Source: Chthonomonadaceae bacterium (GTDB lineage Bacteria > Armatimonadota > Chthonomonadetes > Chthonomonadales > Chthonomonadaceae). From it: 64,000 bases of DNA. Both the position numbers and the translations under genes were made by a program. The notes beneath the pieces were generated by a model. The model was given only the letters and a program-made list of their open reading frames with translations, was not told the DNA's origin and did not search any database. The stretch spans positions 1 to 64,000 of the forward strand of contig DAIDKH010000009.1 in assembly GCA_027450145.1 (NCBI GenBank), read 5' to 3'. How positions within the stretch are numbered: position 1 is the first letter of the stretch; each line of letters opens with the position of its first letter. Positions 36,166 through 64,000 of this stretch are shown here, one piece after another.

Positions 36166-36969
36166 ATGGAAAACGAAGTGGTACCTAACGTGGCTGAATT
36201 GGAGAGGAGAGCATTTGATGACGTTTGCAAACGGCTGAGACCCAGACTCAAAGCCCAGGCATGCCGACTGGTGGGTTTACAGGAAGCGGATGACGTTGTA
36301 CAACAGGCGTTGCTTACCGCATGGAGCGTACGCATGCGCATCAACCTGAACTCTACCGACGGCGAAATGTTTGCGTGGCTTAGCAAGTTCATTACATTTA
36401 CCGCACGTGAGCAACGTAGAATTGCCGCGCGCAGGCGTGGGCGAGAAGCACCCACGGATACCGTACCTATACCAGACGACTTCCTGCAGCTGTACGTACC
36501 AGATACCGCTACCGCCCGACAGGAGCTCTACCTCATACAGAGACGTGAGCTGCTTCGTCTGCTTTGTAGAGTTAACCTAACGAACAGACAGCGGGATTGT
36601 GTACGATCCTGGGCAAGTGGAGAAAGTCAACATGCCATTGCTGCACGGCTTCATCTACGCAGCGCCACCGTGTGGCAGCACATAGGCGCTGCAATCGACA
36701 AGATGCAACAACTGGAGCGTGACACTGCCTACACCGCCCGTACCGCCTACTTTCATGAACAGGGAAGGAGGGGCTATACCGCACCAGAACCGATAGGCGC
36801 GCGACTAGCTAGGGAACAACTTGCAAAGATGGCACATCACGATTCACTCGTAGCCGCAAGATGTCGCCGACGCAGAATTCGATGGTCACGTTCACAAGAT
36901 GCAATCTCAAACGTGCCAACCAAAACTATAAAGGCATGCTCCAAAGAGTCTGCAACTGATCGAAAGTGA
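36166..36969 (+). CDS. Sigma-70 family factor with a basic C-terminal extension
   Basis: 267 residues with GGAGG before the ATG. Region 2-like sequence at about 15-95 ([37 protein letters not shown]). Region 4-like helix-turn-helix at about 135-185 ([36 protein letters not shown]). About 80 further residues follow, highly basic ([12 protein letters not shown]) and without a recognised domain; ordinary ECF factors stop near residue 190. No anti-sigma gene is adjacent. The last 44 bases overlap, tail to tail, the pseudopilin gene on the other strand. Confidence 0.8.
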
Positions 36970-37576
36970 GTATCTTCACGTGGCCGTCGCCAAATAGCGT
37001 GTTGTACATTAGTGTTCGAGGAAAACTGGAGCCGTGCCACTTACCCGCACCATCGAACAACACGTTGAGCTGGGAGGGCGTTTGAAAGGACGCATCGCCA
37101 GCGTGCCTGAAGGTGATCTCGGTACGATAGTAGTAGCTTGTACCAAACTTTGCAAAGCTGCTGGGTTCCGCGTTGGCCGGGTTACCAGTAGGATCAATCT
37201 GCAAGCCTGTGAAGTCCTCGGTGTTAAATCCTGTATCTGCAGGGCAGTGGAATACCTCTTTGCTCTTCACATAAGGCTGCAACGGAATCTGAATAAGCGG
37301 TATGTACTTTATCTGGGCTTCAAACTGAGGAAACTGACTCCATATTTGCGGAGTGAACTTGTCTGCGGGGTCTACAGCCCAGGGGTAAATACCGTCATAA
37401 TCCTGGCTATACATGTTGATCGCCAGGCCGATTTGATGAAGGTTGGAGGCGCACACAACTTGCCGTGCCTTGCCTCTTGCGGCGAGAAAGGCAGGGAAGA
37501 GCAAGCCCGCTAATATGGCGATAATCGCGATAACAACAAGCAGCTCAATGAGCGTAAAACCACGGTCGCCACGCAT
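36926..37576 (-). CDS. Pseudopilin-like protein with prepilin N-terminus
   Basis: About 216 residues from the ATG at 37576 ([13 protein letters not shown]). A start at 37615 would put the codon inside a hairpin, so the shorter form is preferred. Type IV prepilin signal and hydrophobic helix ([20 protein letters not shown]), then [20 protein letters not shown], as in the large DUF1559-like families of Armatimonadota and Planctomycetota. The C-terminal H-X9-DG motif is degenerate here ([10 protein letters not shown]). Exported through a type II/IV-like system and probably assembled or anchored at the envelope; precise role unknown. Confidence 0.85.
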
Positions 37577-37610
37577 TCCATTTGCCCCCAGTGTTAGTGA
37601 ACAACCAAAC

Positions 37611-37646
37611 TTCACCGGGTGACGTTATGATCTGCCACCCGGTGAA
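37611..37646 (-). terminator. 11-bp hairpin downstream of the BI-1 gene
   Basis: TTCACCGGGTG (37611-37621) and its exact complement (37636-37646) enclose 14 bases. It sits between the BI-1 stop (37655) and the pseudopilin start. No U-tract on the minus strand. Confidence 0.55.
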
Positions 37647-47676: not shown

Positions 47677-48555
47677 TTACTGCTGACCAGGATCCGAAAA
47701 AATGCCCATATGTACGTAGTCATTATAGATTTGGGCGAACGATCTGCGTGTGCCATCCGCATTGACAAAAGGAGGATCCTTCACCCACTTGGCGTGGCCG
47801 TCCAGGAAGTCCCAAACACGGCCAGTTTCGTGCCGCTGCCCCATGGACCACCTGTTATCCCCATTGCCGTTTCCATAGCCCGGGACTATATAGTAACCGC
47901 CAAAATATACTGGCGATCCGTTTACGGTAAACGTACCGGAGCCAACGTCTGTTACGAAGAACACCTGCGCCGGTGCATAAACGGACGCTAGCGATACACC
48001 GCCTGGAACATCTGCGTTGGGAGTATTTACAGAAGTCTGGGTGGTTCGGCTAAGGTAGTAGTTGGCGGCATACGAAAGCGGCAGCGCTTTAATTAGCCCT
48101 GCGTTGCTGTTCATAATCCCGGTATACGAGTTAGGCCAATGTGCCGCTAGAAGCTGCGCCTCGTAACAGTAGGAGCCGGTTTTCCCATACCCGGCCTTGT
48201 AGGGATCGGATGGGCACGAGTAAATACCGTAGTTTTTGGCGTACGGCTGTATGGCAAATGGCCAACCCAGTAGACCATCGTAATACTTGTCTGATCGAAC
48301 CGCTCCAGGGTTGCCGTTTTGTCGGCACGAATCGCCCCAGGTATCCGGTACTATCATCTCATCATAATCCTGCAGATACATCTGCTGTGCAAGCCCTATC
48401 TGCTGCAGGTTTGATATACAAGTTGCCTTACGCGCAGCTTCTCGAGCTTGCGCGAAAACCGGGAAGAGAATTGCAGCCAGAATTGCAATAATAGCGATTA
48501 CCACTAGCAGCTCTATAAGTGTAAATGCACTAGATTTAGCTCGTGTCATGTTCAA
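47677..48555 (-). CDS. DUF1559-like pseudopilin with H-X9-DG motif
   Basis: 292 residues. Prepilin cleavage region and helix ([20 protein letters not shown], about 9-28), [37 protein letters not shown], and the C-terminal [17 protein letters not shown] in which His-X9-Asp-Gly is exact. The central region (about 90-230) is variable and rich in Tyr, Gly and Asn, as is usual. AGGAAGG precedes the ATG. Same family as the neighbouring gene, but sequence between the conserved ends differs, so the two are diverged paralogues. Confidence 0.92.
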
Positions 48556-51119: not shown

Positions 51120-51191
51120 AGCCGACGGTCGGATTCGAACCGACGACCGACGGTTTACGAAACCGTTGCGCTACCTCTGCGCCACGTCGGC
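51120..51191 (-). tRNA. tRNA-Thr (anticodon CGT)
   Basis: 72-base cloverleaf: acceptor GCCGACG with CGTCGGC, D-arm GCGCAGAGGTAGCGC, anticodon stem-loop CGGTT-TCGTAA-ACCG with anticodon CGT, and T-arm GTCGGTTCGAATCCGAC. CCA is not encoded. It lies between the NTF2-like gene and the EVE-domain gene, 1.4 kb from the left end of the phage-like cluster. Confidence 0.93.
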
Positions 51192-51491: not shown

Positions 51492-51932
51492 TCAACCCTG
51501 GTTGGCGGCAGCTTCCTTCACAGCGTTAATTACCATCACCGCATCGTCTTCGCTCCATGGCCTCAATGTACTGCGCACGTGCACTCCCCATTTTGACGGG
51601 TCGGCAGAATCAAAAATGGATAGCTCCTGAAGACTGCGGATATCTACACCGGTATCTGGAGTGAGTTGGTATACGATGCGCACCCTGAAGCGGTATGGAT
51701 ACGTCTCTTTCCATATTGGTGAGTCATCGAAATAAGCATCCGATAACACTTCCAGCACGCCTACCCACCTTGACAACCCGGAGAGGTAGCAGAGAAACAT
51801 GTCGCCCGGCCGTACCTTTTTTACAACATCAACCTTGTTGGGCGCAAAACCAGAGGTTTCGCCACCGGCTTCCAGAAAGTCCTGCCATGTCTTCACCGAA
51901 AAAATGTCGAACCAGTAGTTACATGTACGCAT
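51492..51932 (-). CDS. EVE-domain protein
   Basis: 146 residues of the PUA-like EVE family, which binds modified nucleobases in DNA or RNA. Motifs: NYWFDIFSVKTWQDFLEAGG at the N-terminus, KVRPGDMFLCYLSGLSRWVG (about 39-58), VLEVLSDAYFDDSPIWKE, and a final helix. EVE proteins often accompany restriction and other DNA-modification-dependent defence systems, but here no restriction gene is adjacent. It is the last clear gene before the repeat patch and phage-like cluster. Confidence 0.93.
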   Translation of the reverse strand: MRTCNYWFDIFSVKTWQDFLEAGGETSGFAPNKVDVVKKVRPGDMFLCYLSGLSRWVGVLEVLSDAYFDDSPIWKETYPYRFRVRIVYQLTPDTGVDIRSLQELSIFDSADPSKWGVHVRSTLRPWSEDDAVMVINAVKEAAANQG

Positions 51933-52592: not shown

Positions 52593-53813
52593 TCAGCTCG
52601 CGATCCAACCGCCAGGCCCACCTGGGCCATTACCCGTTGCCGCGCCTGCTAGTTGCGAAGCGTCCAGGCTGTTGACGACAGTTACCTGTACACTGCGGCC
52701 ACTAACAGCGTCGAACATCGCAACGAAATCGGCATTGATCACGATCGCCCCCGCAGCGTGCGGCACCGGGGCTCGCTGAAGTTTTACATGTGGCAGCCAC
52801 AATTCCACGCTGGCCGCAACGCCACTGGTCCCCACAGTCGCGCCGGTTAATCGCAGGTTCATGGCACATTGGCTAAAGCCAAGCTCAGCGGCTGGCAGGC
52901 TCATGTCCTGGTACAGGCACACAAGCCTGCCACTCACGGTAAACTCCGCGCAAAGCACAGCGCCAGGGTCGTAGCCGCTTCCAGCCACCTGACGACTGTC
53001 AACAGTCCGCTTAAGCACCACACGCGTACCAGGCAGCAGTTGAACCGGGACTACTGTGCCATCTATGCTTAGAAACCCGCCAGCAATCTGGGCGCCATAG
53101 CCCAATCCGGCAAAAACTAGTGGACCGTTGCCGCTGGAACCGCCCTGCACATCGATAAAAGAAGGTGACGGGTTCTGCACCACTGTCTTCACACCGTCGC
53201 CACCCATTTGCAGCGGCAGCACCGCAGGCACCGTGCCAAAGAATACAGACCGGTACACGCCTCCAGCGTCCGGATATGAGTTTGGTATCTGACGGTGTGC
53301 AACAACGGCTACCACTGCCGTCACGATGTCGCCAAAGTCCAGTGTCACCTCCTCTACTACTGCACCGCTCGTGAGACGGCCATTTGCGCCATCCCCCATC
53401 TGTTCTTCAACGGTAAACGAAGGGACGCTTCGAGCAGGGCTCATCACATGTTTGAACATAGCAGGTGAGTGGTTTGCGTCCTGGGATTGAACCGTAGTTT
53501 GAATGTCTCTGCCAAAAATGCCAAGAAGCGGATAGTAGAGGTTTTCGCTGTCTGCCCTCAGGCTAATGTCGCCTTTATACTGCTTGCCTAACAACGTAAT
53601 TCGCCTCTGTTCCACCATTCCATCTATTTCCGGCTTTAGGTCCAGTATCGGCTCGCCGCTGATTCCGTTACCTGGCTCTACGGCACTGAACCGCATAGGA
53701 TTTGTAACGGCAGACCCTGCCACAAACGGAGCGGTCGCTCCAGACAAAGGCACACTGCAGAATGCCGACTCTATCGCCAAACCTATTGCCCCGTTGATAC
53801 CGCTCACAGCCAT
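52593..53813 (-). CDS. Phage tail-tube-like structural protein
   Basis: About 406 residues from the ATG at 53813 (AGGTGTC upstream region; the frame to 53864 adds an unrelated Arg/Cys tail). The N-terminus MAVSGINGAIGLAIESAFCS with PMRFSAVEPGNG resembles major tail/tube proteins, which open with a short glycine-rich strand and an ESxFG motif. Two beta-rich halves repeat a similar pattern (VTLDFGDIVTAVVAVV; AEFTVSGRLVCLYQD), as in duplicated tube domains. It is the last phage gene of the cluster; no tape-measure gene follows, which is unexpected. Assignment rests on pattern and gene order (portal, connector, terminator, tube). Confidence 0.55.
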   Translation of the reverse strand: MAVSGINGAIGLAIESAFCSVPLSGATAPFVAGSAVTNPMRFSAVEPGNGISGEPILDLKPEIDGMVEQRRITLLGKQYKGDISLRADSENLYYPLLGIFGRDIQTTVQSQDANHSPAMFKHVMSPARSVPSFTVEEQMGDGANGRLTSGAVVEEVTLDFGDIVTAVVAVVAHRQIPNSYPDAGGVYRSVFFGTVPAVLPLQMGGDGVKTVVQNPSPSFIDVQGGSSGNGPLVFAGLGYGAQIAGGFLSIDGTVVPVQLLPGTRVVLKRTVDSRQVAGSGYDPGAVLCAEFTVSGRLVCLYQDMSLPAAELGFSQCAMNLRLTGATVGTSGVAASVELWLPHVKLQRAPVPHAAGAIVINADFVAMFDAVSGRSVQVTVVNSLDASQLAGAATGNGPGGPGGWIAS

Positions 53814-53911
53814 AAGACACCTCCAACATGAACCCGCCAAGTCATGCGCGTTAGCACGCCTCATCCATTTGGGTGTAGAATAGTGGAAATTACACGGAGT
53901 TCAACTAGCAG

Positions 53912-54619
53912 ATGCCGCTGCCGCCCCTCATTGTGGTGCCCACGTTTAACGAGATTGAGAACCTTCCTGAGCTAATCGAGCGCATTTTTGCCGTGATGAA
54001 TAATGTGCACCTATGGATAGTGGATGACGCATCACCGGATGGCACGGCGGATGCTGCCGAGCGGCTGCTGGTCGATAGGGAAGGTTCGCTCGTCTACAGA
54101 CGCACAGGAGAACGGGGACTGGGAAGGGCCTATTGCGATGCTTTTCAGAGAGCCCTGTTGGCAGGATACACCACGATCGTGCAGATGGACGCAGATCTCT
54201 CGCATGACCCGGCGCACCTCCCTGCGCTCATTGCTGCAACCTCTACGTGCGATCTCGCCATCGGCTCGCGGTATGTGCGTGGTGGCGGTGTAAGGGCCTG
54301 GCCGCTGCGCCGCATTCTGCTTAGCCGAGGTGCAAACTTGTACGTTCGGCTCATCACGGGGCTGCCTGTAAATGACGCCACTTCCGGGTTTCGCTGCTGG
54401 ACCGCCAAAGCACTGACCGCGGTAGACCTCGCGACTATGAATGCTCGCGGCTATGCCTTTCAGGTTGGCATGGCATACCGTGCCTTCCATGCTGGTATAC
54501 ACCTTACCGAGGTTCCCATTGTCTTTACCGACCGCAAACTGGGAAGTTCAAAGCTAAGCGGCACCGTGTTTCGCGAGTCGGTACTGGTGCCGTGGCTTCT
54601 CCGCTTTGGGCGCTGTTAG
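53912..54619 (+). CDS. GT2 glycosyltransferase, polyprenyl-phosphate mannose/glucose synthase type
   Basis: 235 residues. GT-A fold with PTFNEIENLPELIERIF (N-terminal), WIVDDASPDGT, the metal/nucleotide motif QMDADLSHDP (about 91-100), ATSGFRCWTAKALTAVDL and YAFQVGMAYRAFHAGIHLTE, FTDRKLGSSKLS. These are the standard blocks of DPM1-like enzymes that load mannose or glucose onto polyprenyl phosphate. No C-terminal GtrA membrane domain. Plus-strand gene set inside the minus-strand phage operon, overlapping the next phage gene tail to tail by 4 bases. Could be a cargo gene that modifies surface glycans. Confidence 0.92.
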   Translation: MPLPPLIVVPTFNEIENLPELIERIFAVMNNVHLWIVDDASPDGTADAAERLLVDREGSLVYRRTGERGLGRAYCDAFQRALLAGYTTIVQMDADLSHDPAHLPALIAATSTCDLAIGSRYVRGGGVRAWPLRRILLSRGANLYVRLITGLPVNDATSGFRCWTAKALTAVDLATMNARGYAFQVGMAYRAFHAGIHLTEVPIVFTDRKLGSSKLSGTVFRESVLVPWLLRFGRC

Positions 54620-55155
54620 CCACTATACCGTATTCGCACGGGCAGAACTGCCACCGCCTCGGCCGTCATCTGGCTGCCGCTGCCCGCGGTAGTCATCCAG
54701 CGGCGCGCCTCCATCTCGCCCCCGGCCGCAGGCGCCATGCGTAGTTCGTACCACCAGCCGGTTTCCACCAAATGTGCATTTAGAGCGGATCGTAGATTAG
54801 CGGCTAACTGGTCGCGCTGCCGCCGCGCATCTGCGCGAACGGGTGCGCTGCAGGCCACCACAAGCTGCACGACCGCTGCAATGAGGTCGGTCACGCCACC
54901 CACTGCGAGCGGCGCTTCCAACCATTCCAGCGACTCCAGGGCATGCGTACCCAGGTACAGTGCCGGCCGCTCCTCCGCTCCAGCAGGTTGATAGCTGCAG
55001 TCGTAAAGGTTTATCCATCCAGGCGCGGCGGGTATGCCGCTATCAGGGCGTGTTACTCCGGGCCATCCTGTGCTCCAGATTGTGCCCGGCTGAAGCAGTA
55101 CGCTAGAGGCCTGCAATAGATCCAGCAGGTGCCCGGTAATCTCAAAGAGCGTCAT
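54616..55155 (-). CDS. Phage structural protein, tail-terminator-like
   Basis: About 179 residues from the ATG at 55155 (MTLFEITGHLLDLLQASSVL). Composition is hydrophobic and Ala/Trp rich, without a signal peptide. Size, position after the connector gene and alternating strand/helix pattern fit a tail terminator or minor tail protein, but no family is recognised by motif. Stop overlaps the GT2 gene on the other strand. Separated from the connector gene by a 310-base repeat-containing gap. Confidence 0.5.
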   Translation of the reverse strand: MTLFEITGHLLDLLQASSVLLQPGTIWSTGWPGVTRPDSGIPAAPGWINLYDCSYQPAGAEERPALYLGTHALESLEWLEAPLAVGGVTDLIAAVVQLVVACSAPVRADARRQRDQLAANLRSALNAHLVETGWWYELRMAPAAGGEMEARRWMTTAGSGSQMTAEAVAVLPVRIRYSG

Positions 55156-55235
55156 CTTGACTCCTAGGAAGTTTAGGTGAAATCGCACACGCCCAAGCGT
55201 TTACTATTAGTGCTTGAAATACATATCCTGCAATG

Positions 55236-55281
55236 CGCTGCGCTGCGGCCTCTTTGCTTGTGGGCACGTTCACCAAATTTA
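55236..55281 (+). repeat. Dispersed repeat, core module, copy C
   Basis: Shares GCTGCGGCC, TTGCTTGTGGGCA, GTTCACCAA with copies A and B, with more substitutions. Confidence 0.7.
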
Positions 55282-55348
55282 AGGACTGCTGGAACGGAGT
55301 ATGAGAAGTAAAACTGCACAGTCGGTTCATCGCCTTCTTGTTAGCGCA

Positions 55349-55438
55349 ACCACCTGCCAATCTCCACCTCCCATTCCCCTCCTTAAGTGCCAGAGGTGCG
55401 CCAGGCGGAGGGGTCGACGCGCTATCGGCGGGGAAAGT
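55349..55438 (+). repeat. Dispersed repeat, hairpin module, copy C
   Basis: ACCACCTGCCAATCTCC, CCCCTCC, AGTGCCAGAGGTGCGCC, GGAGGGGTCG and GGCGGGGAAAG follow in the same order as in 52374-52477. Confidence 0.65.
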
Positions 55439-55467
55439 GTCTATGCACGGTAAACGCCATTGCAGCG

Positions 55468-55800
55468 CTAACCTCCCACAAGCTGCACGATGGCAGTAAC
55501 TCGTACAACAGTTCCCTGCACGTCTGTAATGTCCAGGGCACGGATAACTCCATTCCAGCCCGCTGAAAGCCAAACGATACTAGCGCCCGGGGCTGCCAGG
55601 GCGGGTGCCAGGAGCGCCTCGGCAGGCAGGGTTACCTCATAAGCCGGCTCACTCCACTCCGTATCGCCTAAAAACATCTGCACGCGTCCGGGCTGTGCTC
55701 GTTCCCAAAGTGCGAGCAGTTCCGTTCCGTTTATAAGAGTGGGCGTGCCTGCAAATCCAACAGCCCACGAAGCCGCATTCTGCAGCGCATTTCCTAACAC
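55468..55800 (-). CDS. Small phage protein, head-tail connector-like
   Basis: 110 residues, beta-rich with an Ala/Pro-rich C-terminal half (TLPAEALLAPALAAPGASIV). No recognised motif. It overlaps the end of the portal-like gene by 7 bases and precedes the terminator-like gene, the usual place of a connector or stopper protein. Function inferred from order only. Confidence 0.5.
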   Translation of the reverse strand: MLGNALQNAASWAVGFAGTPTLINGTELLALWERAQPGRVQMFLGDTEWSEPAYEVTLPAEALLAPALAAPGASIVWLSAGWNGVIRALDITDVQGTVVRVTAIVQLVGG

Positions 55801-57221
55801 GCCGTGCCTCCTTGCGGTAACGCATCATCTAACTGGCTGTGAGGCGGGCCAGCCACTGCGGCTGTCCCCGTAATGGCGATTGCCGCACTCTCCTGGCTCT
55901 GCCATCCTTCGTCGCGAATGCGCGCCTGGTTGGCTATTTCCAGAGCAAGAGCCTGCGCCTCCTGTAACCGGCCTACCGTAGGTGCAGGCACAAACTCTGC
56001 TTCCACTCGGCAAGCCATACCTAACAGCCTTAAATGCAATTCACTGGCTCGCACCAGCGGCGCTGCGGCACGGGATGCCATGGCCTGCAGGCCCGCCGAA
56101 TAGATATCCCACTGCACGCGGCTCCAGGTCTCTGTGTCCCCCTCCACCACGCCCATCAGCGTCGGCAGTTGCTTGAGTGACTGAATAAGCCGCTGGCGCA
56201 ATATCCGCCAGATCGGCTCAACCTGCCCCCAGTCACTCCCGCTGCCCACGGCATTTACCTTACTCTTTAAATCGTGAAAGAATGCGTCGTCCGGGTTGAG
56301 GTCGCTGTAAAACTTAACTGCGTCATCATAGCGGCTCTGCACATACTGCTGTATCTCTACCGGGTCAGCGAGTCCCACTACATCTCGCGCAAGGGTAGCC
56401 CACATCTCGAAGTCAAACCCCACGTCCCATTTGGGTGTACCAACCCTATGCCATGCCAGCAACAGATCGCGCATAAAAGCCAGGCACTCCAGAACCGGGG
56501 TGAGGGCGGCGCCAAAGGGAGCCCTGCCGTAAGGTTCATCCGGCAGAGCCGCCAGCCTGCTGATAAAGAATCGCTGCATGGGCATCGGCGCGAAAAACCC
56601 GCCAAATCCAGCAGAATAGAGCCCCAATCCGTTGGCATTGGCCGTCTGCTGCTGCCATAAAGTCAATTCACCGCTGTTATCTCGCTGGAACCGGAGCGTA
56701 AGCGTGTTAACCGGAAAGACAGCTGCGACTCCCCCACCACGTTCCGCAGGGACCGCCTCGCAAGCGCACATGCCACTGAAACAGAGCATCTGCAAGTTCT
56801 GAGCCATGGCATCATGGAAGTCGCCAACCTCCTGCGGGTTGTCACGCCAAAGTTTGTCCAGCGCGGCATGAGCCTCCGGCCACGTTTCTCCCTTGCCACC
56901 CGGCTGCACTCTCACTGTGCGAAGCCTCACACGTTCGGGACTGCAGCTTAGCCACGTGAGGTTCCAAAGTGCCAGGCCAACTTCGGGCACTACGTCTGGT
57001 AACAGACTCAACAGTTCCAGCGGTTGCTGAACCGCCAGCCGTGACAGCCCCTCCAGCGTCTGCACAGCCAGGCTTGTGCCAAAATCGACGCCCCTTCGCG
57101 CGATGTAGCCCAAGCCGCCGTGGTTTAGCAAAAGCTCGCCAGCCCCCTGGCTTACACGTCTTGAGTCCGCACTAGACCTCCCGCCGCCGGGCGTAGCACC
57201 GGCCATTCGCTGCAGTCTCAT
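55794..57221 (-). CDS. Phage portal-like protein (Mu gp29/DUF935-like)
   Basis: 475 residues with AAGGAG 8 bases before the ATG. Early helices with RGVDFGTSLAVQTLEGLSRL, then a long mixed domain (LWNLTWLSCSPERVRLRTV, PFGAALTPVLECLAFMRDLLLAWH) and a C-terminal helical stem-like part (RILRQRLIQSLKQLPTLMGV, QAMASRAAAPLVRASELHLR) typical of portals. Size fits DUF935-like portals (about 450-520). Overlaps the connector gene downstream. Assignment is from overall pattern and neighbours; no catalytic motif exists to test it. Confidence 0.65.
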   Translation of the reverse strand: MRLQRMAGATPGGGRSSADSRRVSQGAGELLLNHGGLGYIARRGVDFGTSLAVQTLEGLSRLAVQQPLELLSLLPDVVPEVGLALWNLTWLSCSPERVRLRTVRVQPGGKGETWPEAHAALDKLWRDNPQEVGDFHDAMAQNLQMLCFSGMCACEAVPAERGGGVAAVFPVNTLTLRFQRDNSGELTLWQQQTANANGLGLYSAGFGGFFAPMPMQRFFISRLAALPDEPYGRAPFGAALTPVLECLAFMRDLLLAWHRVGTPKWDVGFDFEMWATLARDVVGLADPVEIQQYVQSRYDDAVKFYSDLNPDDAFFHDLKSKVNAVGSGSDWGQVEPIWRILRQRLIQSLKQLPTLMGVVEGDTETWSRVQWDIYSAGLQAMASRAAAPLVRASELHLRLLGMACRVEAEFVPAPTVGRLQEAQALALEIANQARIRDEGWQSQESAAIAITGTAAVAGPPHSQLDDALPQGGTAC

Positions 57222-57233
57222 CCCAGGTGCTCC

Positions 57234-58070
57234 TTAAAAAACCGGTTGGAAACCCCCATCACCATTGCTATTCTCACCAGACGCGTCTAGAAACCAGTGA
57301 TCAGTAAGCAGCCGGATAACGCCACCCAGAAGAGTCTCCACGCTTCCCTGCTGCACTGCGTAGCGTGTAGGTCCGCTCACCTTAAAGGGCTGAAAAGCCG
57401 CGGCGGCCGCCTGAAATTGCGCCTGAATTACGGTAACCCTACCAAGAGAGATTACTGCCTCCTGCAACCACTGCTGCTCAAGAGGTGTGCCCGCGCTACC
57501 ATTTGCGTAGACAAAGCTGCTTTGGCCAAGCTTGATTTGTGATACTTCGCCAACAGGTAGGGATTTGGCTCGCCCGGGTCGTAGCTTGAGTGCAGTAACT
57601 AGCCCTACCGCCCAGTCAAACCGCTCCTGATCCAGTCCCGTTAGACCAGAATAGCCTCCTGCAATCTGAAGCGCGGCGAACCTGTCCTGCAACGTCCTAA
57701 TCACGGTCCATACCTCAGCATCAAGATCCGCGTCGGCCAATGTTCCATTTGTCTCTTGCAACCGCCGCCTCACGAGAGCCCCCACGTCGGTGTACGTGCA
57801 TGTTCGTGTTTCTTTGCGGTCCACTATTTCGCCATCGCTGTAGGTGAATCTCCATTCAAGCTGGTATTCGCCAACGGTGCTCGCAGAGATGTTGGCTGTG
57901 AATGTATGTGCTATAGCGGCAGCAGTCGGCGAGACGGTCACGACTGGCGAAGGAGATAACACACCGCCGTTCGGCATCACTACGGAGAGTTGCTGACCGG
58001 TGACAGCGATCGATGCTAAATGTGATTCTGCGCGCACCACGGTTTGAACGTCCCCTGCAATAAGGGTCAT
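57234..58070 (-). CDS. Phage protein with N-terminal Ig-like and C-terminal connector-like part
   Basis: 278 residues. About 20-115 is a beta-sandwich-like stretch (VVTVSPTAAAIAHTFTANIS, YQLEWRFTYSDGEIVDRKET), recalling BppU-type baseplate or Ig-like domains. About 120-250 is helical (YTDVGALVRRRLQETNGTLA, VIRTLQDRFAALQIAG), as in DUF1320-like connectors. Such a fusion is unusual and I do not recognise it as a named family. The portal-like gene follows 13 bases later. Confidence 0.5.
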   Translation of the reverse strand: MTLIAGDVQTVVRAESHLASIAVTGQQLSVVMPNGGVLSPSPVVTVSPTAAAIAHTFTANISASTVGEYQLEWRFTYSDGEIVDRKETRTCTYTDVGALVRRRLQETNGTLADADLDAEVWTVIRTLQDRFAALQIAGGYSGLTGLDQERFDWAVGLVTALKLRPGRAKSLPVGEVSQIKLGQSSFVYANGSAGTPLEQQWLQEAVISLGRVTVIQAQFQAAAAAFQPFKVSGPTRYAVQQGSVETLLGGVIRLLTDHWFLDASGENSNGDGGFQPVF

Positions 58071-58104
58071 TGAGCGCCTCCTTCAAGCCGCCGTACCTTG
58101 CAGC

Positions 58105-58920
58105 TTACATTCCAACGCCTATCGACAGCCGAAATGGACCCGTGCGCCCACCATTCGTAGAGATGGCAGCCAGCCGTGATAAAGTACCGGTAGCCGGCTG
58201 GAGAAAAGCGAATGGGGTGGCTGCAAGCAGGGCAAATTCTGTGGAGATAAGTGCGCGGTTCCACACGTAACCAAGATAAAACAGACCGTTCATGGCAGTA
58301 TTGGCGGTTTGAATGGAACGCTGCTGCATGAGCGCGACACCAGCATTCCCGGCATATGGTCCCTTAGCAGCAGCCTCGCCGCCCACCCGAATGCCGTTGA
58401 AATAGAATGCTCGGCTAAGATCACCGTTTAGCACGGCGCCTATCATTACAGGAGTATTCGGTGAAAATCCACCAGGTATGGGGCGATACGTGTAATCATT
58501 ACCCATATCACACCACAAATACTGGTTATCCCAAATACCCACGTTGAAGCTGGTGTCTACCCCCTGGACCGACCCAATACTGATGGCAAGCGGTGAGTTG
58601 GAGACAGGATTGGAAGTAGCAAACGCTGCAGCCACCAACACGGTGATCTCTCCCTCAGTAATGTTCTCAATTAACGAGCTGCCAATTCCTCCTAAACTGC
58701 TTCCGTTCTGTTGCAGAGCGAATCCCTCGCTTGCAACCACTGCTGCTATGCCTGCGCCTCCATTTAGGATGTTGGGCGAGTCGGTAACGCCACCCGCAAT
58801 GTTCCGCGGCAGTAGCGAGTCGCCTGTTACTACCCAACACCCGATGAGGCCATAGGCAAGTGGATTGCTCATGTCCACAGTGACCGCAGCACGTGGCTGC
58901 CCGTACAGCTTAAGCGTCAT
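58105..58920 (-). CDS. Phage LamG/ConA-like surface protein
   Basis: 271 residues. Starts MTLKLYGQPRAAVTVDMSNP and shows the jelly-roll pattern of LamG/concanavalin-like lectin domains: NPLAYGLIGCWVVTGDSLLP, YTYRPIPGGFSPNTPVMIGA, SRAFYFNGIRVGGEAAAKGP and AMNGLFYLGYVWNRALISTE (the final strand motif GxxxxGYVWNR is common in these). Likely a carbohydrate-binding decoration or fibre tip. Overlaps the 127-residue gene by 4 bases. Confidence 0.65.
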   Translation of the reverse strand: MTLKLYGQPRAAVTVDMSNPLAYGLIGCWVVTGDSLLPRNIAGGVTDSPNILNGGAGIAAVVASEGFALQQNGSSLGGIGSSLIENITEGEITVLVAAAFATSNPVSNSPLAISIGSVQGVDTSFNVGIWDNQYLWCDMGNDYTYRPIPGGFSPNTPVMIGAVLNGDLSRAFYFNGIRVGGEAAAKGPYAGNAGVALMQQRSIQTANTAMNGLFYLGYVWNRALISTEFALLAATPFAFLQPATGTLSRLAAISTNGGRTGPFRLSIGVGM

Positions 58921-59300
58921 ACTAGCCCGTCCACAGTACTGGTTGTCACCCAGAGGGTAATGCCGTTCGCACTGTCACCATTCAGCACCTGCAGCAGGTA
59001 GCGCCCAGTGGCCAGGCACAGCGAACGGATAGCATGTCCACCCGCCAGTGCGAGCGCTTGGCTGAAAGCCGCCATCGGCACTGTGTCTGCTGTAGGCACG
59101 CTGCCAATCAGGCGGTAGACATTGATCGTCGCGACAGCCCCTGATGTCACAGCCGACCCACTGAGCAGATCAATCTGCACCTGCCCCTCCAGTTTGTTGC
59201 TGAAGTCTAATGTGTAGTTGTTGGAGACACTCCCCGGACCAATGGGTATACTTGCCGCCACATTGCCGTACAGGTTTTGCGTCATTTGTGGAGATGCCAT
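58917..59300 (-). CDS. Small phage beta-rich protein
   Basis: 127 residues starting MASPQMTQNLYGNVAASIPI after GGAGGA. Alternating strands (YTLDFSNKLEGQVQIDLLSG, AVATINVYRLIG, HAIRSLCLATGRYLLQVLNG) but no known family. Probably a structural partner of the LamG-like protein, with which it overlaps by 4 bases. Confidence 0.55.
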   Translation of the reverse strand: MASPQMTQNLYGNVAASIPIGPGSVSNNYTLDFSNKLEGQVQIDLLSGSAVTSGAVATINVYRLIGSVPTADTVPMAAFSQALALAGGHAIRSLCLATGRYLLQVLNGDSANGITLWVTTSTVDGLV

Positions 59301-59447
59301 AGCCTATCCTCCCCGCTTGCCGCGGTTACTTTCACGTTCACGAGAAAAATTGGATGAGCCCACGGGTAATTTTGCGCTGCCACTCGGATTATAGAGGTGT
59401 ACGCCTACGCAAATGCATCACACATTAACTACATCAGGAGCGATTGA

Positions 59448-60317
59448 ATGAAGATAAACCTGAACACGGCTATAGCTGCAGCGCTGTTGGCAGTTGCGGC
59501 TATCCTTCCCGCATGGGCGCGGTCCACGGCCACTCCGCCAGCCATCCTCGCATTTCTGCCAGCTACTGTCGTTCACCAGGGCGAAACCCAGGAAAACCCA
59601 CTGCTCACGCAGAACGCATTTAACCCTCTAGACTCTTACAACCGCGACGTCACGAGATTTGCAATAGAATCGCGCAAACGAAGGTGGCCGTTCTATATTG
59701 CCGACGCGGATGCCGCGAACGCCGCCTGTCAGGCCGTTATTGGAAACCAGCTCACCTCGCAGACTAACTATCAATTCGGAGAGTTGAAAGAGATCGCCAA
59801 ACGGATTCCAGCACGGTACCTCGTGCTAGTTTCCATTACCGAGATAACCTCATACCGCAAAACGAATACCTTTACAGCTATGGCGGAAGGTCGTGCCTCT
59901 ATCACGCTCACTGTATATGATGCCGACCAAAACGCATATGTCTGGCAGGACTCCACCACGAGCAGCTCAGCACGGGGTGACCTCTTCCATAGCGGCAGTC
60001 TCTCGGCCAGGCAGGATCAGGCGCTCCTCAACTGCATGCTAAACGCCCTTACGCCATTCGCAAAAGGCCAGAGGGAGGTGATTGCACGACCGGAGTGCGA
60101 TGCAATAGCAAAGGTGGTAGAGGTCATCCCTTCAGACACCCAGGTTCTCATCAACGTAGGATCCACTCAAGACGTCATGACGGGCATGAAGTTTCGCGCG
60201 CTTGGCAGCGGGCTGGTCGTCACCGTGAAGACGGTGTTTACCAATGGTGCACTAGCTGCATACAGCGGTGGAGTACCCGCAACGGGGGAAGCACTTCTGC
60301 CTGTGCGTTCCAACTGA
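59448..60317 (+). CDS. Secreted protein of unknown function embedded in the phage cluster
   Basis: 289 residues on the plus strand. A Sec signal peptide (AIAAALLAVAAILPAWARS, cleavage about residue 25) precedes a mature chain with RYLVLVSITEITSYRKTNTF, EGRASITLTVYDADQNAYVW and QVLINVGSTQDVMTGMKFRA, a layout recalling CsgG/FlgT-like periplasmic lipoproteins. No lipobox is present and no family is firmly recognised. SD GGAG lies before the ATG. It looks like a host or cargo gene, flanked by minus-strand phage genes on both sides. Confidence 0.65.
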   Translation: MKINLNTAIAAALLAVAAILPAWARSTATPPAILAFLPATVVHQGETQENPLLTQNAFNPLDSYNRDVTRFAIESRKRRWPFYIADADAANAACQAVIGNQLTSQTNYQFGELKEIAKRIPARYLVLVSITEITSYRKTNTFTAMAEGRASITLTVYDADQNAYVWQDSTTSSSARGDLFHSGSLSARQDQALLNCMLNALTPFAKGQREVIARPECDAIAKVVEVIPSDTQVLINVGSTQDVMTGMKFRALGSGLVVTVKTVFTNGALAAYSGGVPATGEALLPVRSN

Positions 60318-60323
60318 GTTCAG

Positions 60324-60533
60324 GTGCGCGTCGCCGGATTCGATGCGCCCGAACCACGCGCCGGCCTGGCGGTTAGAGGTCATCCATTGCAGCCGGTACT
60401 CCTGCAACTCCTCACTGCCGGGCAGGTGCGGTTAGTGATGTACTGCAGCGGATTTACCGACGGGACTCGGCGGCTAAGCAATGAGCGCATGCACTACGTC
60501 CAGCTGACTTACGCTGCTGTTTTCGCCCCATAG
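60324..60533 (+). CDS. Possible remnant related to staphylococcal nuclease family
   Basis: 69 residues from a GTG. It begins RVAGFDAPEPRAG, close to the VxVxGIDAPE motif of SNase proteins, and continues LLTAGQVRLVMYCSGFTDGTRRLS. The rest of an SNase fold is missing, so if real it is a fragment. It overlaps the next phage gene on the other strand by 60 bases. No ribosome site is seen. Confidence 0.25.
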   Translation: MRVAGFDAPEPRAGLAVRGHPLQPVLLQLLTAGQVRLVMYCSGFTDGTRRLSNERMHYVQLTYAAVFAP

Positions 60534-60935
60534 TGTTTCAGCACGGCTGCACGGGCGGGTGGTGATGCTGCTCACCACAGCCGCCGACAGCAGGCCGTCA
60601 CCCACCATGGCTGCTAGAAAACTTTGAGTGGATGCAAGCGACGGCAGAACGGCTTTACTGGTAAGCATCATCTGCAGTGCGCCACTGTACAAAGTTTGCT
60701 TGGCAGCGGACAGCGATGCCAGAGCGTTATAGAACGAGGCCAGCTCCGGCAATACGGCAGCAATGAACTGGTCGTGAGGAATTGCCTGCATAGTAAGGAC
60801 ACCTGCACCGGGGCCAGTACGCGCGTTGAGGCAAGACGCTGTAGCCGCCGTATTCCCCGCTGCAAGCAGCGCCGCATACCCCATATGAATGGGGTCATTG
60901 TGCAGCTCGCTGTTCAATTGATCCAAAGGTACCAC
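60474..60935 (-). CDS. Phage-cluster protein of unknown function
   Basis: 153 residues, helical and Ala/Leu-rich (YAALLAAGNTAATASCLNAR, ELASFYNALASLSAAKQTLY), no signal peptide. No family is recognised. It opens with MVPLDQLNSELHNDPIHMGY, a phrase resembling short tail-assembly or baseplate-associated proteins. Follows the small membrane gene on the same strand. Confidence 0.5.
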   Translation of the reverse strand: MVPLDQLNSELHNDPIHMGYAALLAAGNTAATASCLNARTGPGAGVLTMQAIPHDQFIAAVLPELASFYNALASLSAAKQTLYSGALQMMLTSKAVLPSLASTQSFLAAMVGDGLLSAAVVSSITTRPCSRAETLWGENSSVSQLDVVHALIA

Positions 60936-60951
60936 TCGATAAACACTCCTC

Positions 60952-61167
60952 TCAATATTTGCCCAAATGACCTATGAGCCAGCCCACTAGCACCCCCGCC
61001 ATCGCGCCAATGCTCACTGCATAATGGGGATGGCGAGATATGCCGGCCCGCACAATTTGGGTGATGGCCGGTACCCTGCCTGATGCCAGCGCATATGCCT
61101 CGTAGGCCGCCAAACCGGTGAGTCCAGCACTCACAAGTGTCGCGCTAAATGCAAGGAAACTACCCAT
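60952..61167 (-). CDS. Small membrane protein next to the endolysin, holin candidate
   Basis: About 71 residues from the ATG at 61167, which has GGAG 8 bases upstream and overlaps the endolysin stop by 8 bases. Two hydrophobic segments (MGSFLAFSATLVSAGLTGLA and YAVSIGAMAGVLVGWLIG). Position, size and topology fit a holin, but no holin family is recognised. The longer frame to 61257 would run inside the endolysin gene. Confidence 0.55.
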   Translation of the reverse strand: MGSFLAFSATLVSAGLTGLAAYEAYALASGRVPAITQIVRAGISRHPHYAVSIGAMAGVLVGWLIGHLGKY

Positions 61168-61894
61168 GCGTGCCACTCCGTACGCCAGATCCTCGCTCCT
61201 CACACAGGGGATTCGCGGCACCCGCAGCCCGGATAGTATCACCAGTCGTCGAGACACGTACTCGAGCGCGCGGGGCGGCTTCAGCCGGTGGAAGCAGGCG
61301 CATAAAAGCGCTGCGACCGTTGGTGCGGTTTACATCGCATGGCCCCATAACGCCGTCCACCGAACCGTGGTCGCTGTACTGCCATACCGTCCAGCCGGAC
61401 CAACCTTTCGGCAGCGGTCCAGGCTCAGCAGAATAGTGAGCCAGCCACAGGGGGTATTCACCAAAGCCCTCGCCTAGCCAAGTATCCAGCCATGCTCTAC
61501 TACCGTAAAGCAGGCAACCTCTACCTGTGCGGTCCTTGATGGCGTCAACAAAGCCTTGGACAACCTCGCGAATTGCCCCTGCGCCGCGAGCCCTGGCCAT
61601 TGGGTCCTCAAGATCCAGCGCGACCAGCATGTCCGAGCCGGGACGATAGCCCGCTGCCTCTGCTCGATCTAGACACCAGCGTGCTTGCACATCACCTGGC
61701 AACCGTGTGTGCAGGTAGTGGTACACGCCCAGGTGCAGCCCAGCTTTTCGAGCGCCAGCGATGTAGCGGGCGCACACAGGATCCTCCCGATTAATTCCCT
61801 CGGTAGCTTTTATATAGACAAAATCCTGCCCATCGCGTGAAACATCCCTCCACGAAACAGTGCCGCTCCAGTGGGAAACATCGATACCTCTCAT
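61160..61894 (-). CDS. GH25 lysozyme-type endolysin
   Basis: About 244 residues from the ATG at 61894 (AAAGG upstream). Muramidase barrel with MRGIDVSHW (Asp5), VYIKATEG (Glu32), GLHLGVYHYLHTR and VALDLED (Asp94, Glu96), the catalytic set of the family, then WLAHYSAEPGP and WTVWQYSDHG. It cuts the MurNAc-GlcNAc bond for host lysis. A C-terminal Pro/Arg-rich tail of about 40 residues follows the barrel. No cell-wall-binding repeats are visible. Placed between capsid and portal genes, which is unusual. Confidence 0.92.
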   Translation of the reverse strand: MRGIDVSHWSGTVSWRDVSRDGQDFVYIKATEGINREDPVCARYIAGARKAGLHLGVYHYLHTRLPGDVQARWCLDRAEAAGYRPGSDMLVALDLEDPMARARGAGAIREVVQGFVDAIKDRTGRGCLLYGSRAWLDTWLGEGFGEYPLWLAHYSAEPGPLPKGWSGWTVWQYSDHGSVDGVMGPCDVNRTNGRSAFMRLLPPAEAAPRARVRVSTTGDTIRAAGAANPLCEERGSGVRSGTHG

Positions 61895-61913
61895 CGTAAT
61901 GCCTTTCAAATAA

Positions 61914-61953
61914 CAAACCCGGTATTGCAGCACAAGGCGCAGTACCGGGTTTG
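61914..61953 (-). terminator. Hairpin upstream of the endolysin gene
   Basis: CAAACCCGGTA and TACCGGGTTTG arms (61914-61924 and 61943-61953) around an 18-base loop. It may terminate the capsid/coiled-coil unit on the minus strand. Confidence 0.5.
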
Positions 61954-61980
61954 ATCACCGTAAATAATGCACTGGTTACG

Positions 61981-62283
61981 TTACGAACTGGAGCCGCCTG
62001 CACCGGAACTCCCATCCTTAGGCGAGGTGATGCCAGACGCAACTTTCGCAGCCACCGCACCGATGGCTCTGTCTGCCTCCTGCTGCGCCCAATTGGTGAG
62101 CCGTGGCTCCATATTGGTCACCTCACTATCCAGAGCCGTCTGCATAGCAGCCTTAATCGGCCCCGGGATGGATGCCTTTATCTTCAGCTGCCTGGGCCGA
62201 ATGTAGAGTGCATGATGAATCCATGCGCCAAATGCGGCGCTCACCGCGCCCAATGCAGTTCCAAAAAACCAGTTCACTGGCAT
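61981..62283 (-). CDS. Small phage membrane protein
   Basis: 100 residues. One N-terminal membrane helix (WFFGTALGAVSAAFGAWIHH), a central helical part with KASIPGPIKAAMQTALDSEV, and a Gly/Ser-rich tail. It overlaps the coiled-coil gene by 10 bases. Possibly part of the lysis cassette (spanin or holin-like), without sequence proof. Confidence 0.55.
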   Translation of the reverse strand: MPVNWFFGTALGAVSAAFGAWIHHALYIRPRQLKIKASIPGPIKAAMQTALDSEVTNMEPRLTNWAQQEADRAIGAVAAKVASGITSPKDGSSGAGGSSS

Positions 62284-62546
62284 TTACCTCCCTTTTGCTG
62301 TACAAGCAGGTCGAGCTTGGCCTCAATACGGGCCAGTCTCGTATCCAGATCACCCGCCACCGTAGCAATTCGATCACCCCGCTCTTCTTCCGACTGCAGG
62401 TCGCGACGCAGGGCGACAACCTTCTCTTCCAGCGTGGTAATACGACCACTAAGCCTTACTATTGCGGCGGCCGCGCCCCCGAGGATCGTAATGACACCTA
62501 CCGCCGCCATCACCATAGCTGCCAGCTGCGAAGCGACAGTCCCCAT
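62274..62546 (-). CDS. Small membrane protein with coiled coil (lysis-cassette candidate)
   Basis: 90 residues from the ATG at 62546; upstream codons lack support. One membrane helix (MVMAAVGVITILGGAAAAIV) is followed by an uninterrupted heptad coiled coil (TTLEEKVVALRRDLQSEEER, LARIEAKLDLLVQQK). Such TM-plus-coil proteins are common next to phage lysins. Function not established. Confidence 0.6.
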   Translation of the reverse strand: MGTVASQLAAMVMAAVGVITILGGAAAAIVRLSGRITTLEEKVVALRRDLQSEEERGDRIATVAGDLDTRLARIEAKLDLLVQQKGGKCQ

Positions 62547-62563
62547 TGCACTCCCCTCCGCGC

Positions 62564-62818
62564 TTAATAGAGGCCTAACAAAACTGCGCTGCCCAGGCTT
62601 GTGCCCGTCGCCCATACCTGTGTAACGCTCACAGGGTTGTATCCCTTTTGCAGCGGCAGTGCCACTATATCTCCACCAAGCATAGTGACTCGCACAGTAC
62701 AGTCCGCCGATGCCAGAAGTGACCGCGCCCAGGGCACACCGCTTTCTGAAACATGCTGATTGTCGCTTGGAGCAATCACCCAGGCTCGTGCGGCCGGGTT
62801 GCTGGCAGGTACGTTCAT
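62564..62818 (-). CDS. Small phage protein resembling spike-base proteins
   Basis: 84 residues from the ATG at 62818 with AAGGAGG upstream. Pattern: IAPSDNQHVSES, then ARSLLASADCTVRVTMLGGD, then VALPLQKGYNPVSVTQVWAT. It resembles small spike-base or decoration proteins (RCAP_Rcc01079-like), in which a short entry strand and a VxVTTxGGD strand are conserved. Follows the capsid gene. Confidence 0.55.
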   Translation of the reverse strand: MNVPASNPAARAWVIAPSDNQHVSESGVPWARSLLASADCTVRVTMLGGDIVALPLQKGYNPVSVTQVWATGTSLGSAVLLGLY

Positions 62819-62836
62819 CTCTCCTCCTTGCCGCAA

Positions 62837-63766
62837 TTAGCTCGTGGCACTGCTGCCATAGGCGAGCTGCCACAACCCGTAGCCCTGTGCGTATCTTCCC
62901 CTAATAGTGAACTGGTACTGCTCACGAATGCGCGCAGTGGGTTGGTCCATATCAGTCTCCAGGGTAATTGGCACATCCTCACGGCTCTGAATCACGACCG
63001 GTTTCACCTCGCGGCTGCAATCCATGAGGAACCACTGGTAACCGCTGATGTATGGGCTAACCACCAAGCGGTACCGTCCGCTAAAGTAGTTACGATAGGG
63101 TGTGGATGGCACGCCGGCAGTACCGGTTTCGCCTGTCGCAACCACCACATCCTGCGCCACGAGGTTCCACGCCCGCCTGGCCAGAAGAGGACCCACCACG
63201 AGCGTATCAGGTATGACTTCAAGCGGTACACCCTTGTCATCCACGTAGCTCATCATTGCAGTGGCAGCCTCCTCCAGGGCACTATCCGCCAGCGGTTGAG
63301 CAGTTGTGTTGGACTGTGCCGGACTACTGCCTTCCTGGTGCGCCGTGCTAAAGAAGAGCTGACCATCGTAGCATGGGTTTGCGAAGCCTGCGGGCAGGGC
63401 CTGAAAGGCCAGTTGATTCCAGTGGCGAACTGGCTCCTGCGCAAGTTCCCGCGCACGAATCATGAGTAGTCCGTACTGATCATCTTCCAGCGTGCGCCGG
63501 TCTATTACGAGGTTTCCTTTATACAGGATGTCTGCCAAGCGGTAGCTATCTTCCCTCAAACCCTGCTGGGGGGCTTCGTCATTGAACGGACGCATCACCG
63601 CACCGCGTCCCAGCCATGCGTAATTTTGAATTGGCAGTGTAGTTGGTATTTCTGTAGCAATGGAGCGCCAGTCGGCATTTTCTTGCGCCTTTATGTACGC
63701 CGCATTAAACTCGGTCTTGATACCCGCCTGCGTAAGCAGTAGAACATCACTGGTAACAACCGCCAT
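62837..63766 (-). CDS. Mu gpT-like major capsid protein
   Basis: 309 residues with AAGGAG before the ATG. HK97-fold capsid protein of the Mu gpT group. Seen: QNYAWLGRGAVMRPFNDEAP, NLVIDRRTLEDDQYGLLMIR, PCYDGQLFFSTAHQEGSSPA (the YDGQxFFxTxH motif of gpT), VIPDTLVVGPLLARRAW and PYRNYFSGRYRLVVSPYISG. Length matches the family. It is the most diagnostic gene of the phage cluster. Mu-type gpT proteins have no scaffold domain, and a separate protease/scaffold gene may lie to the right of the window. Confidence 0.92.
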   Translation of the reverse strand: MAVVTSDVLLLTQAGIKTEFNAAYIKAQENADWRSIATEIPTTLPIQNYAWLGRGAVMRPFNDEAPQQGLREDSYRLADILYKGNLVIDRRTLEDDQYGLLMIRARELAQEPVRHWNQLAFQALPAGFANPCYDGQLFFSTAHQEGSSPAQSNTTAQPLADSALEEAATAMMSYVDDKGVPLEVIPDTLVVGPLLARRAWNLVAQDVVVATGETGTAGVPSTPYRNYFSGRYRLVVSPYISGYQWFLMDCSREVKPVVIQSREDVPITLETDMDQPTARIREQYQFTIRGRYAQGYGLWQLAYGSSATS

Positions 63767-63798
63767 GTTTCAAGTTCTCCTTGTGCGCACTGCGCCTT

Positions 63799-64000
63799 CT
63801 ACTGCACCGCACGATCAATTCGGATCCGCACGTCGCTGGAATCGATGATCTCCACAGCGTAACCGATCAGCTGATTACCCGTGTTTGCGATAGTGACGGT
63901 CTGGTCATCTGCGGCGTAATAGGCCTGACCAATATCCGCCTGCGTAGCGGCTGACGAGGCGCCAAAGACGAAGCTGCCGCTCTTCTCTACACGACATATG
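63799..64000 (-). CDS. Phage head decoration-like protein (5' end outside the window)
   Basis: The frame enters from the right edge and ends in TAG at 63799-63801. The visible 66 residues read RVEKSGSFVFGASSA, then QADIGQAYYAADDQTVTIAN, then GYAVEIIDSSDVRIRID. Strands of this type occur in the small capsid decoration or fibre proteins that precede gpT in Mu-like phages. It is 30 bases upstream of the capsid gene, same strand. The start is outside the window, so length is unknown. Confidence 0.75.
   Translation of the reverse strand, partial: ICRVEKSGSFVFGASSAATQADIGQAYYAADDQTVTIANTGNQLIGYAVEIIDSSDVRIRIDRAVQ

Follow-up and report, generated by a model that had tools for sequence, protein, structure and literature searches.

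Why would a phage-like cluster in a bacterial genome run from a capsid through lysis and fibre genes to a portal and a tail tube, and then break off without a tail? The question is posed by positions 52593-64000 of the window, the whole 64,000-nucleotide stretch analysed here (G000:C9:1-64000), which forms the start of contig C9 in a draft Chthonomonadaceae genome (G000; 4,140,905 bases, 168 contigs). Judging from sequence comparisons, this locus probably encodes the head and neck of a siphovirus-like particle that has been domesticated and inherited vertically, with its tail half elsewhere in the genome; the particle is most likely a gene transfer agent (GTA). We compared G000 with its sister genomes G001 and G002 and with the remainder of its family of 17 genomes, including G003 (one contig of 3,437,861 bases), G005, G009 and G010, as well as with G055, a Capsulimonadaceae metagenome-assembled genome (MAG) from a different family, and with IMG/VR viral contigs, of which L195 and L196 match the capsid best.

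A head-and-neck locus of derived gene order

Pfam and PHROG scans bore out the order capsid - lysis - fibre - portal - tube that a preliminary description had read from the letters of the window, with the connector candidate between fibre and portal. All particle genes being on the minus strand, the side to the right of the cluster is upstream, and contig C9 extends there past the window to 71450, adding ~7.45 kb. An extension in this direction had been suggested as a check for terminase and protease; both are present, with particle genes reaching up to 67434 and host genes following. Their presence agrees with a normal phage genome continuing in standard order, whereas the tail genes that such a genome would carry on this side are absent. 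From right to left, the locus comprises (C9 coordinates; ORF, open reading frame):

67594-68577, minus: host formiminotransferase (FTCD), upstream of the small-terminase candidate
66955-67434, minus: small-terminase (TerS) candidate, beyond the window end
65532-67025, minus: large terminase (TerL; Terminase_6C, E=2e-11), beyond the window end
64216-65535, minus: S49 protease (Peptidase_S49, E=3e-27), beyond the window end
63799-64212, minus: decoration (cement) protein (Phage_cement_2, E=3.6e-6), cut by the window end at 64000
62837-63766, minus: gpT-type major capsid protein (Pfam Mu-like_gpT, E=3e-52)
62564-62836, minus: small ORF of a tail-fibre family (phrog_12296, E=4e-6)
62274-62543, minus: spanin-like small ORF within a longer frame, 62274-62873 (phrog_739 Rz-like spanin, weak at E=0.01), with homologues in G002, G003 and G010
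61981-62283, minus: small ORF near the lysis genes, 71% identical to its G002 copy
61160-61933, minus: GH25 endolysin (Glyco_hydro_25, E=4e-41; phrog_291 endolysin)
60952-61257, minus: small membrane protein read as a holin candidate, with homologues in G002 and G010
60474-60935, minus: conserved small ORF, with a homologue on G010 C36 and another at the end of G002 C295
59448-60317, plus: host-type exported protein inside the cluster, FlgT_M-like (Pfam E=8.7e-5, below cut-off)
58917-59300, minus: small protein beside the LamG gene, with no Pfam or PHROG family match and a homologue in G010
58105-58920, minus: LamG-like protein, possible fibre (weak Laminin_G_3 match at E=0.023, under the Pfam cut-off), also present in G002 and G010
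57234-58070, minus: connector/adaptor candidate, named by place and by homologues in relatives' particle loci
55794-57221, minus: portal (phrog_3753 portal, E=1.7e-19)
55468-55800, minus: neckA, head-closure candidate, with no family match and a homologue ahead of tailB in viral contigs
54616-55188, minus: tailB, neck or tail-terminator candidate, with no family match
53912-54619, plus: glycosyltransferase between tailB and tube, read as the dolichyl-phosphate mannose synthase type
52593-53864, minus: tail tube (Phage_tube_2, E=1e-11; phrog_290 minor tail protein, E=2e-13)
51120-51191: tRNA-Thr, left of the tube

Beyond the tRNA lies uvrC amid other host genes. Reading the ORFs of the 48-71 kb stretch and scanning them against Pfam and PHROG revealed no recognisable tape measure, baseplate protein or integrase. 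The connector candidate has no convincing family match (best Pfam hit CopC, E=0.0097, below cut-off); its homologues occur in 4/17 family genomes and in G055, those of the tube in 6/17. TailB homologues precede the tube in viral contigs at 30-43% identity, and the glycosyltransferase has an 87% identical counterpart at the same place in G001. Profile searches against solved structures returned no match for the portal and a single tail protein for the tube (E=0.002), while the AlphaFold2 model of tailB was too poor for use (mean pLDDT 55).

The label 'Mu-like' given to this cluster suits the capsid and, weakly, the portal, which scores 18.2 bits against Pfam Portal_Mu, under the cut-off of 23.9. 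It does not suit the tail, which is of siphovirus type by its tube family and has no recognised sheath. Mu-like phages such as Faecalibacterium phage FP_Mushu share the gpT capsid, with best GenBank phage matches at 29-33%; no Mu transposase was noticed next to the loci, where alone one was looked for. Nor does the order agree, as the portal follows the capsid in the window instead of preceding it; in G003, G010 and G055 it comes after TerL. Since G002 repeats the lamG-connector-portal-neckA order of the window, mis-assembly is an unlikely source of this arrangement, and because G055, L195 and L196 show ordinary head order, the gene order of the window is derived.

The tail half on a separate contig

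A search of the genome for the missing tail genes, with the tail hub of G003 as query, found them on another contig of G000, C71:

C71:2873-3808, minus: tail-assembly-chaperone-like gene (TAC), named by place alone
C71, minus: second, small chaperone-like gene (TAC2), named by place alone
C71:1955-2707, minus: tape-measure candidate of 250 residues
C71, minus: tail hub, its gene cut by the contig end

They adjoin genes identified by reading as a GntR-type regulator, HtrA, ribH, ribBA and purH, and the same tail genes adjoin the same host genes in G001. The tape-measure candidate was named from its place, a match to phrog_794 (E=0.005) and a C-terminus in common with long viral tape measures; it is also homologous to a 678-residue protein of G009 that matches the phrog_167 tape measure (E=2e-4). 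Its length is 242-286 residues in five family genomes, as against 1235-1276 residues in viral contigs with homologous tails (six loci on five contigs). In RcGTA, the known gene transfer agent of Rhodobacter capsulatus, the tape measure consists of 113+83+20 residues, according to the part of PMC7296036 that describes it. Profile searches of the hub against solved structures gave only short partial armadillo-repeat, fibronectin-type and carbohydrate-binding matches, and its AlphaFold2 model was too poor for use (mean pLDDT 42).

Long-lasting purifying selection and descent

Might the cluster be a decaying prophage, as had been proposed, broken by rearrangement in a disorganised genome? Its scattered genes and the host genes within its clusters would fit, as would the general disorganisation of the Chthonomonas calidirosea genome (PMC4959169, in excerpt). 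Nonsynonymous and synonymous divergence (pN, pS) speaks against this. Between G000 and G002, 18 particle genes were comparable, with pS of 0.64-0.80 (saturated or nearly so), pN/pS from 0.039 (capsid) to 0.302 and no stop in 17 of the 18 aligned genes, the exception being one stop in the small ORF at 60952-61257. Five particle genes comparable between G000 and G001 gave pN/pS of 0.17-0.23; a stop listed for the G001 tube falls in an alignment that starts ahead of the start codon, the frame itself being open for 407 residues. For host genes, these two genome pairs gave a range of 0.018-0.408, with UvrC at 0.054 and 0.036. Given low pN/pS at saturated pS and particle proteins still 63-95% identical between sister species, these comparisons indicate that the particle genes are under long-lasting purifying selection rather than decaying. 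With pN/pS of 0.04-0.30, open frames and sites kept in sister species, a decaying prophage is highly improbable, and the alternative raised alongside it, a split, GTA-like particle locus, is the one supported by tail genes under purifying selection elsewhere in G000.

In our alignments, capsid identity to G000 follows host UvrC identity: 95 versus 93% in G002, 77 versus 74% in G010, 77 versus 73% in G005 and 78 versus 72% in G003. The UvrC tree unites G010, G005, G002, G000 and G001, all five with particle genes, in one clade (98/96) and places G003 and G009 elsewhere in the family. The tail-hub tree, (G002,(G000,G001)), matches it (98/98). Host and particle trees agree within the genus, where host flanks are also shared, and to that extent are in line with vertical descent; deeper, the capsid and UvrC trees place G003 differently, with weak support.

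Relatives divide the gene set over several loci

The same gene set is split in other family members. On the single contig of G003, a head locus at 1.655-1.666 Mb (TerS-TerL-portal, host-like genes, then protease-cement-capsid-small ORFs-GH25) lies 1.15 Mb from a tail locus at 2.819-2.830 Mb (connector-neckA, a glycosyltransferase, then tailB-tube-TAC-TAC2-tape measure-hub-fibre). G010 distributes its genes over contigs C36 (TerS-TerL-portal-neckA-tailB-small ORFs-LamG-connector) and C28 (GH25-protease-cement-capsid-tube-TAC-TAC2-tape measure-hub-fibre), and G005 over C245 (TerS and TerL with pilin-like and LacI-like genes in between), C53 (sigma-protease-cement-capsid) and C194 (tube-TAC-TAC2-hub-fibre). 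TerS of G002 shares its FTCD and DUF2961 neighbours with that of G000. An assembly or binning artefact, which a draft of 168 contigs and a hub cut by a contig end might invite, is barely conceivable, as the one-contig G003 is split too and the neighbours seen in G000 turn up again in G001 and G002.

Part of the splitting is a matter of genome style: C. calidirosea scatters host operons generally and has many sigma factors (as described in parts of PMC4959169). The scattering speaks for long residence in such a genome and is not in itself a mark of a GTA. No flanking direct repeats of at least 14 bp were found, and ten stretches scanned in G000, G001, G003 and G010 held no tRNA, unlike the window site. 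A tRNA-integrated prophage was accordingly not supported.

Phage relatives and known systems

A search with a capsid alignment found 431 IMG/VR relatives, the best (L195, L196) at 59-60% identity; for the portal, no IMG/VR relative was found. G055-like gpT viruses resemble the head in their gpT capsid (59-68% identity, G055 at 68%) and in carrying TerL, portal, S49 protease and cement genes, with a TerL match in L195 and G055 and none in L196. Theirs is one block, however, with the portal ahead of protease and capsid. The tail resembles that of siphovirus-like phages such as IMGVR_UViG_3300025914_000010 (L157 and L164, one contig) in a homologous neckA-tailB-tube-chaperone-tape measure-hub-fibre module, mostly at 26-48% identity; such phages differ in being contiguous and in their long tape measures. 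In viral contigs, the gap between neckA and tailB holds several non-structural genes (L164 1283-9321, L159 1857-9270). A glycosyltransferase occupies the same gap in G003 (C1:2820880-2821857), so that this insertion spot is common to phage and host locus.

The notion of a new Armatimonadota phage type thus holds for ancestry, given these viral relatives. It does not extend to the present state of the genes, which are not contiguous and have no recognised replication or integration module at the loci. A living phage or phage-plasmid with its other half elsewhere, possibly as a two-part system, is quite improbable: contiguous homologous phages do exist and G055 has ordinary head order, but in G003 the halves are 1.15 Mb apart, and sister species have the genes set between identical host neighbours.

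RcGTA, as described, is alike in having structural genes endogenised over several loci (PMC9662315, in part) and a very short tape measure (a section of PMC7296036), and the present system has no replication module recognised at its loci. It is unlike in that the capsid here is gpT-type, and in that RcGTA packaging and transfer are proven, whereas the present system is known from its genes alone.

A sigma factor accompanies the particle genes

A candidate regulator lies ~16 kb from the tube gene in G000:

36166-36969, plus: ECF-like sigma factor with Sigma70_r2 and GerE domains

Sigma genes stand directly beside particle genes in G005, where the one next to the protease matches the window at 36166-36969, and in G009, where a weaker homologue adjoins the tape measure. 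Among the 23 genomes searched, all seven family genomes with particle genes had a strong match (E 1.6e-11 or better), compared with 0/10 of those without, whose best match reached E=1.1e-5. Ignoring descent, chance would produce this co-occurrence once in 19,448 cases; its true weight is smaller, five of the seven forming one clade.

A dyad search of 23 upstream stretches placed its best dyad in 3 of them, which 1 of 20 shuffles equalled, making it weak alone. The pattern TACCTGC-N16-MCGAT, picked post hoc, has only two matches in the whole of G000, ahead of TerS and of TAC. G001 has five matches (one ahead of TAC), as does G002 (one ahead of TerS, one ~300 bp ahead of the sigma gene), with 1, 0 and 1 matches for a control pattern in G000, G001 and G002. 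In a MAFFT alignment, the sequences upstream of TAC do not line up at this motif, and the loci examined in G003, G005, G009 and G010 held no exact match. As a promoter candidate, the pattern is a lead.

A putative gene transfer agent

Two of the six GTA features in section 3 of Kogay et al. 2022 (PMC9662315) are seen here. Particle proteins derive from Caudoviricetes, by family models of capsid, portal, terminase, protease, cement and tube, and the genes are fully endogenised over several loci (two loci in G003, two contigs each in G000 and G010, and three in G005). Loci as far apart as in G003 exceed what one phage-sized head would hold as a single molecule, the head being known from genes alone. 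If the particle is a GTA, the sigma factor would switch on both loci, the S49 protease would mature the gpT-type capsid and the terminase would fill it with chromosomal DNA. The head would receive a short tail whose length is set by the ~250-residue tape measure, and cells would lyse through GH25 and the small membrane proteins, releasing particles that carry host DNA to kin.

The same genes could serve another use. PBSX is a headed particle that packages host DNA and kills competitors without delivering DNA, and the gene content (capsid, terminase, tail, lysin) fits a PBSX-like particle equally well. We consider this unlikely, on two points that are not strong: the tape measure is short in the manner of RcGTA (from the portion of PMC7296036 cited above), and nothing at the loci was recognisable as an immunity gene. 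The ComEC-family gene, present in 17/17 family genomes, does not discriminate for DNA uptake, the route by which recipients take up RcGTA DNA through competence proteins (PMC7296036, same portion).

Several observations weigh against a domesticated GTA. The capsid is patchily present (21/81 genomes; 5/17 in its own family), and a 10.5-kb head block in G062 and G049, of another family, has different flanks. Only tail genes were seen in G001 and G009, and the 678-residue tape measure suggests that G009 may hold an ordinary phage. In G005, portal and connector were not recognised, nor was a tape measure at the expected place. The capsid tree groups G003 with G005 and G010 (87/94, weak), outside whose clade of five the UvrC tree puts it. 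Finally, scattering is weak evidence alone, as host operons are widely dispersed in C. calidirosea too.

More tentatively, the system may represent an independent GTA origin in Armatimonadota, a chimaera of gpT head and shortened siphovirus tail with scattered genes and its own ECF-like sigma factor, with a promoter candidate before both halves. The open-access literature, as far as covered, yielded no description of an Armatimonadota GTA; PMC13055281, which names both, concerns an alphaproteobacterial MAG in the part that mentions them. If confirmed, a gpT-capsid candidate with a tape measure as short as that of RcGTA would be an independent case of a phage turned host organelle. With related contiguous, long-tape-measure phages at hand, splitting, tail shortening and sigma co-occurrence are directly comparable. 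C. calidirosea is cultured (PMC4959169, in the part seen), so the GTA claim would be testable there, provided that G003 is C. calidirosea, as we infer.

Distribution across the phylum and further observations

The tail hub occurs in 7/17 family genomes. Across the phylum, 47 of 291 genomes gave any match, only the seven family genomes being reported at E=0; six others ranged from E=9e-20 to 3e-51, and the rest were E=2e-11 or weaker and covered short parts. The capsid tree tends to group its members by host family. In G062, a head cluster reads TerS-TerL, aquaporin, portal-protease-cement-capsid-neck-lysis, then accA and accD (aquaporin, accA and accD named by reading). Such head clusters among host genes in other families suggest an older, phylum-wide history, though the block of G062 has other flanks in G049; if the GTA reading is true, they would make domestication very old.

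The aquaporin-like gene between terminase and portal (L047 14408-15181 in G062) sits at the same place in G049 C47, and G049 C47 and C68 encode two distinct gpT capsids, 39% and 36% identical to that of the window. The G009 cluster (G009:C19, 16613-25688; L112, L109) combines tail genes with a sigma factor, the 678-residue tape measure and a CHAP-type lysin; no capsid was found in that genome, and the cluster is perhaps an ordinary phage remnant or belongs to another head type. Between tRNA-Thr and tube, the window encodes an EVE-domain-like protein by reading (51492-51932). Many prepilin-like proteins with a similar start occur in the window (47677-48555, 36926-37615), in L078 and L111, and in part among the G005 particle genes.

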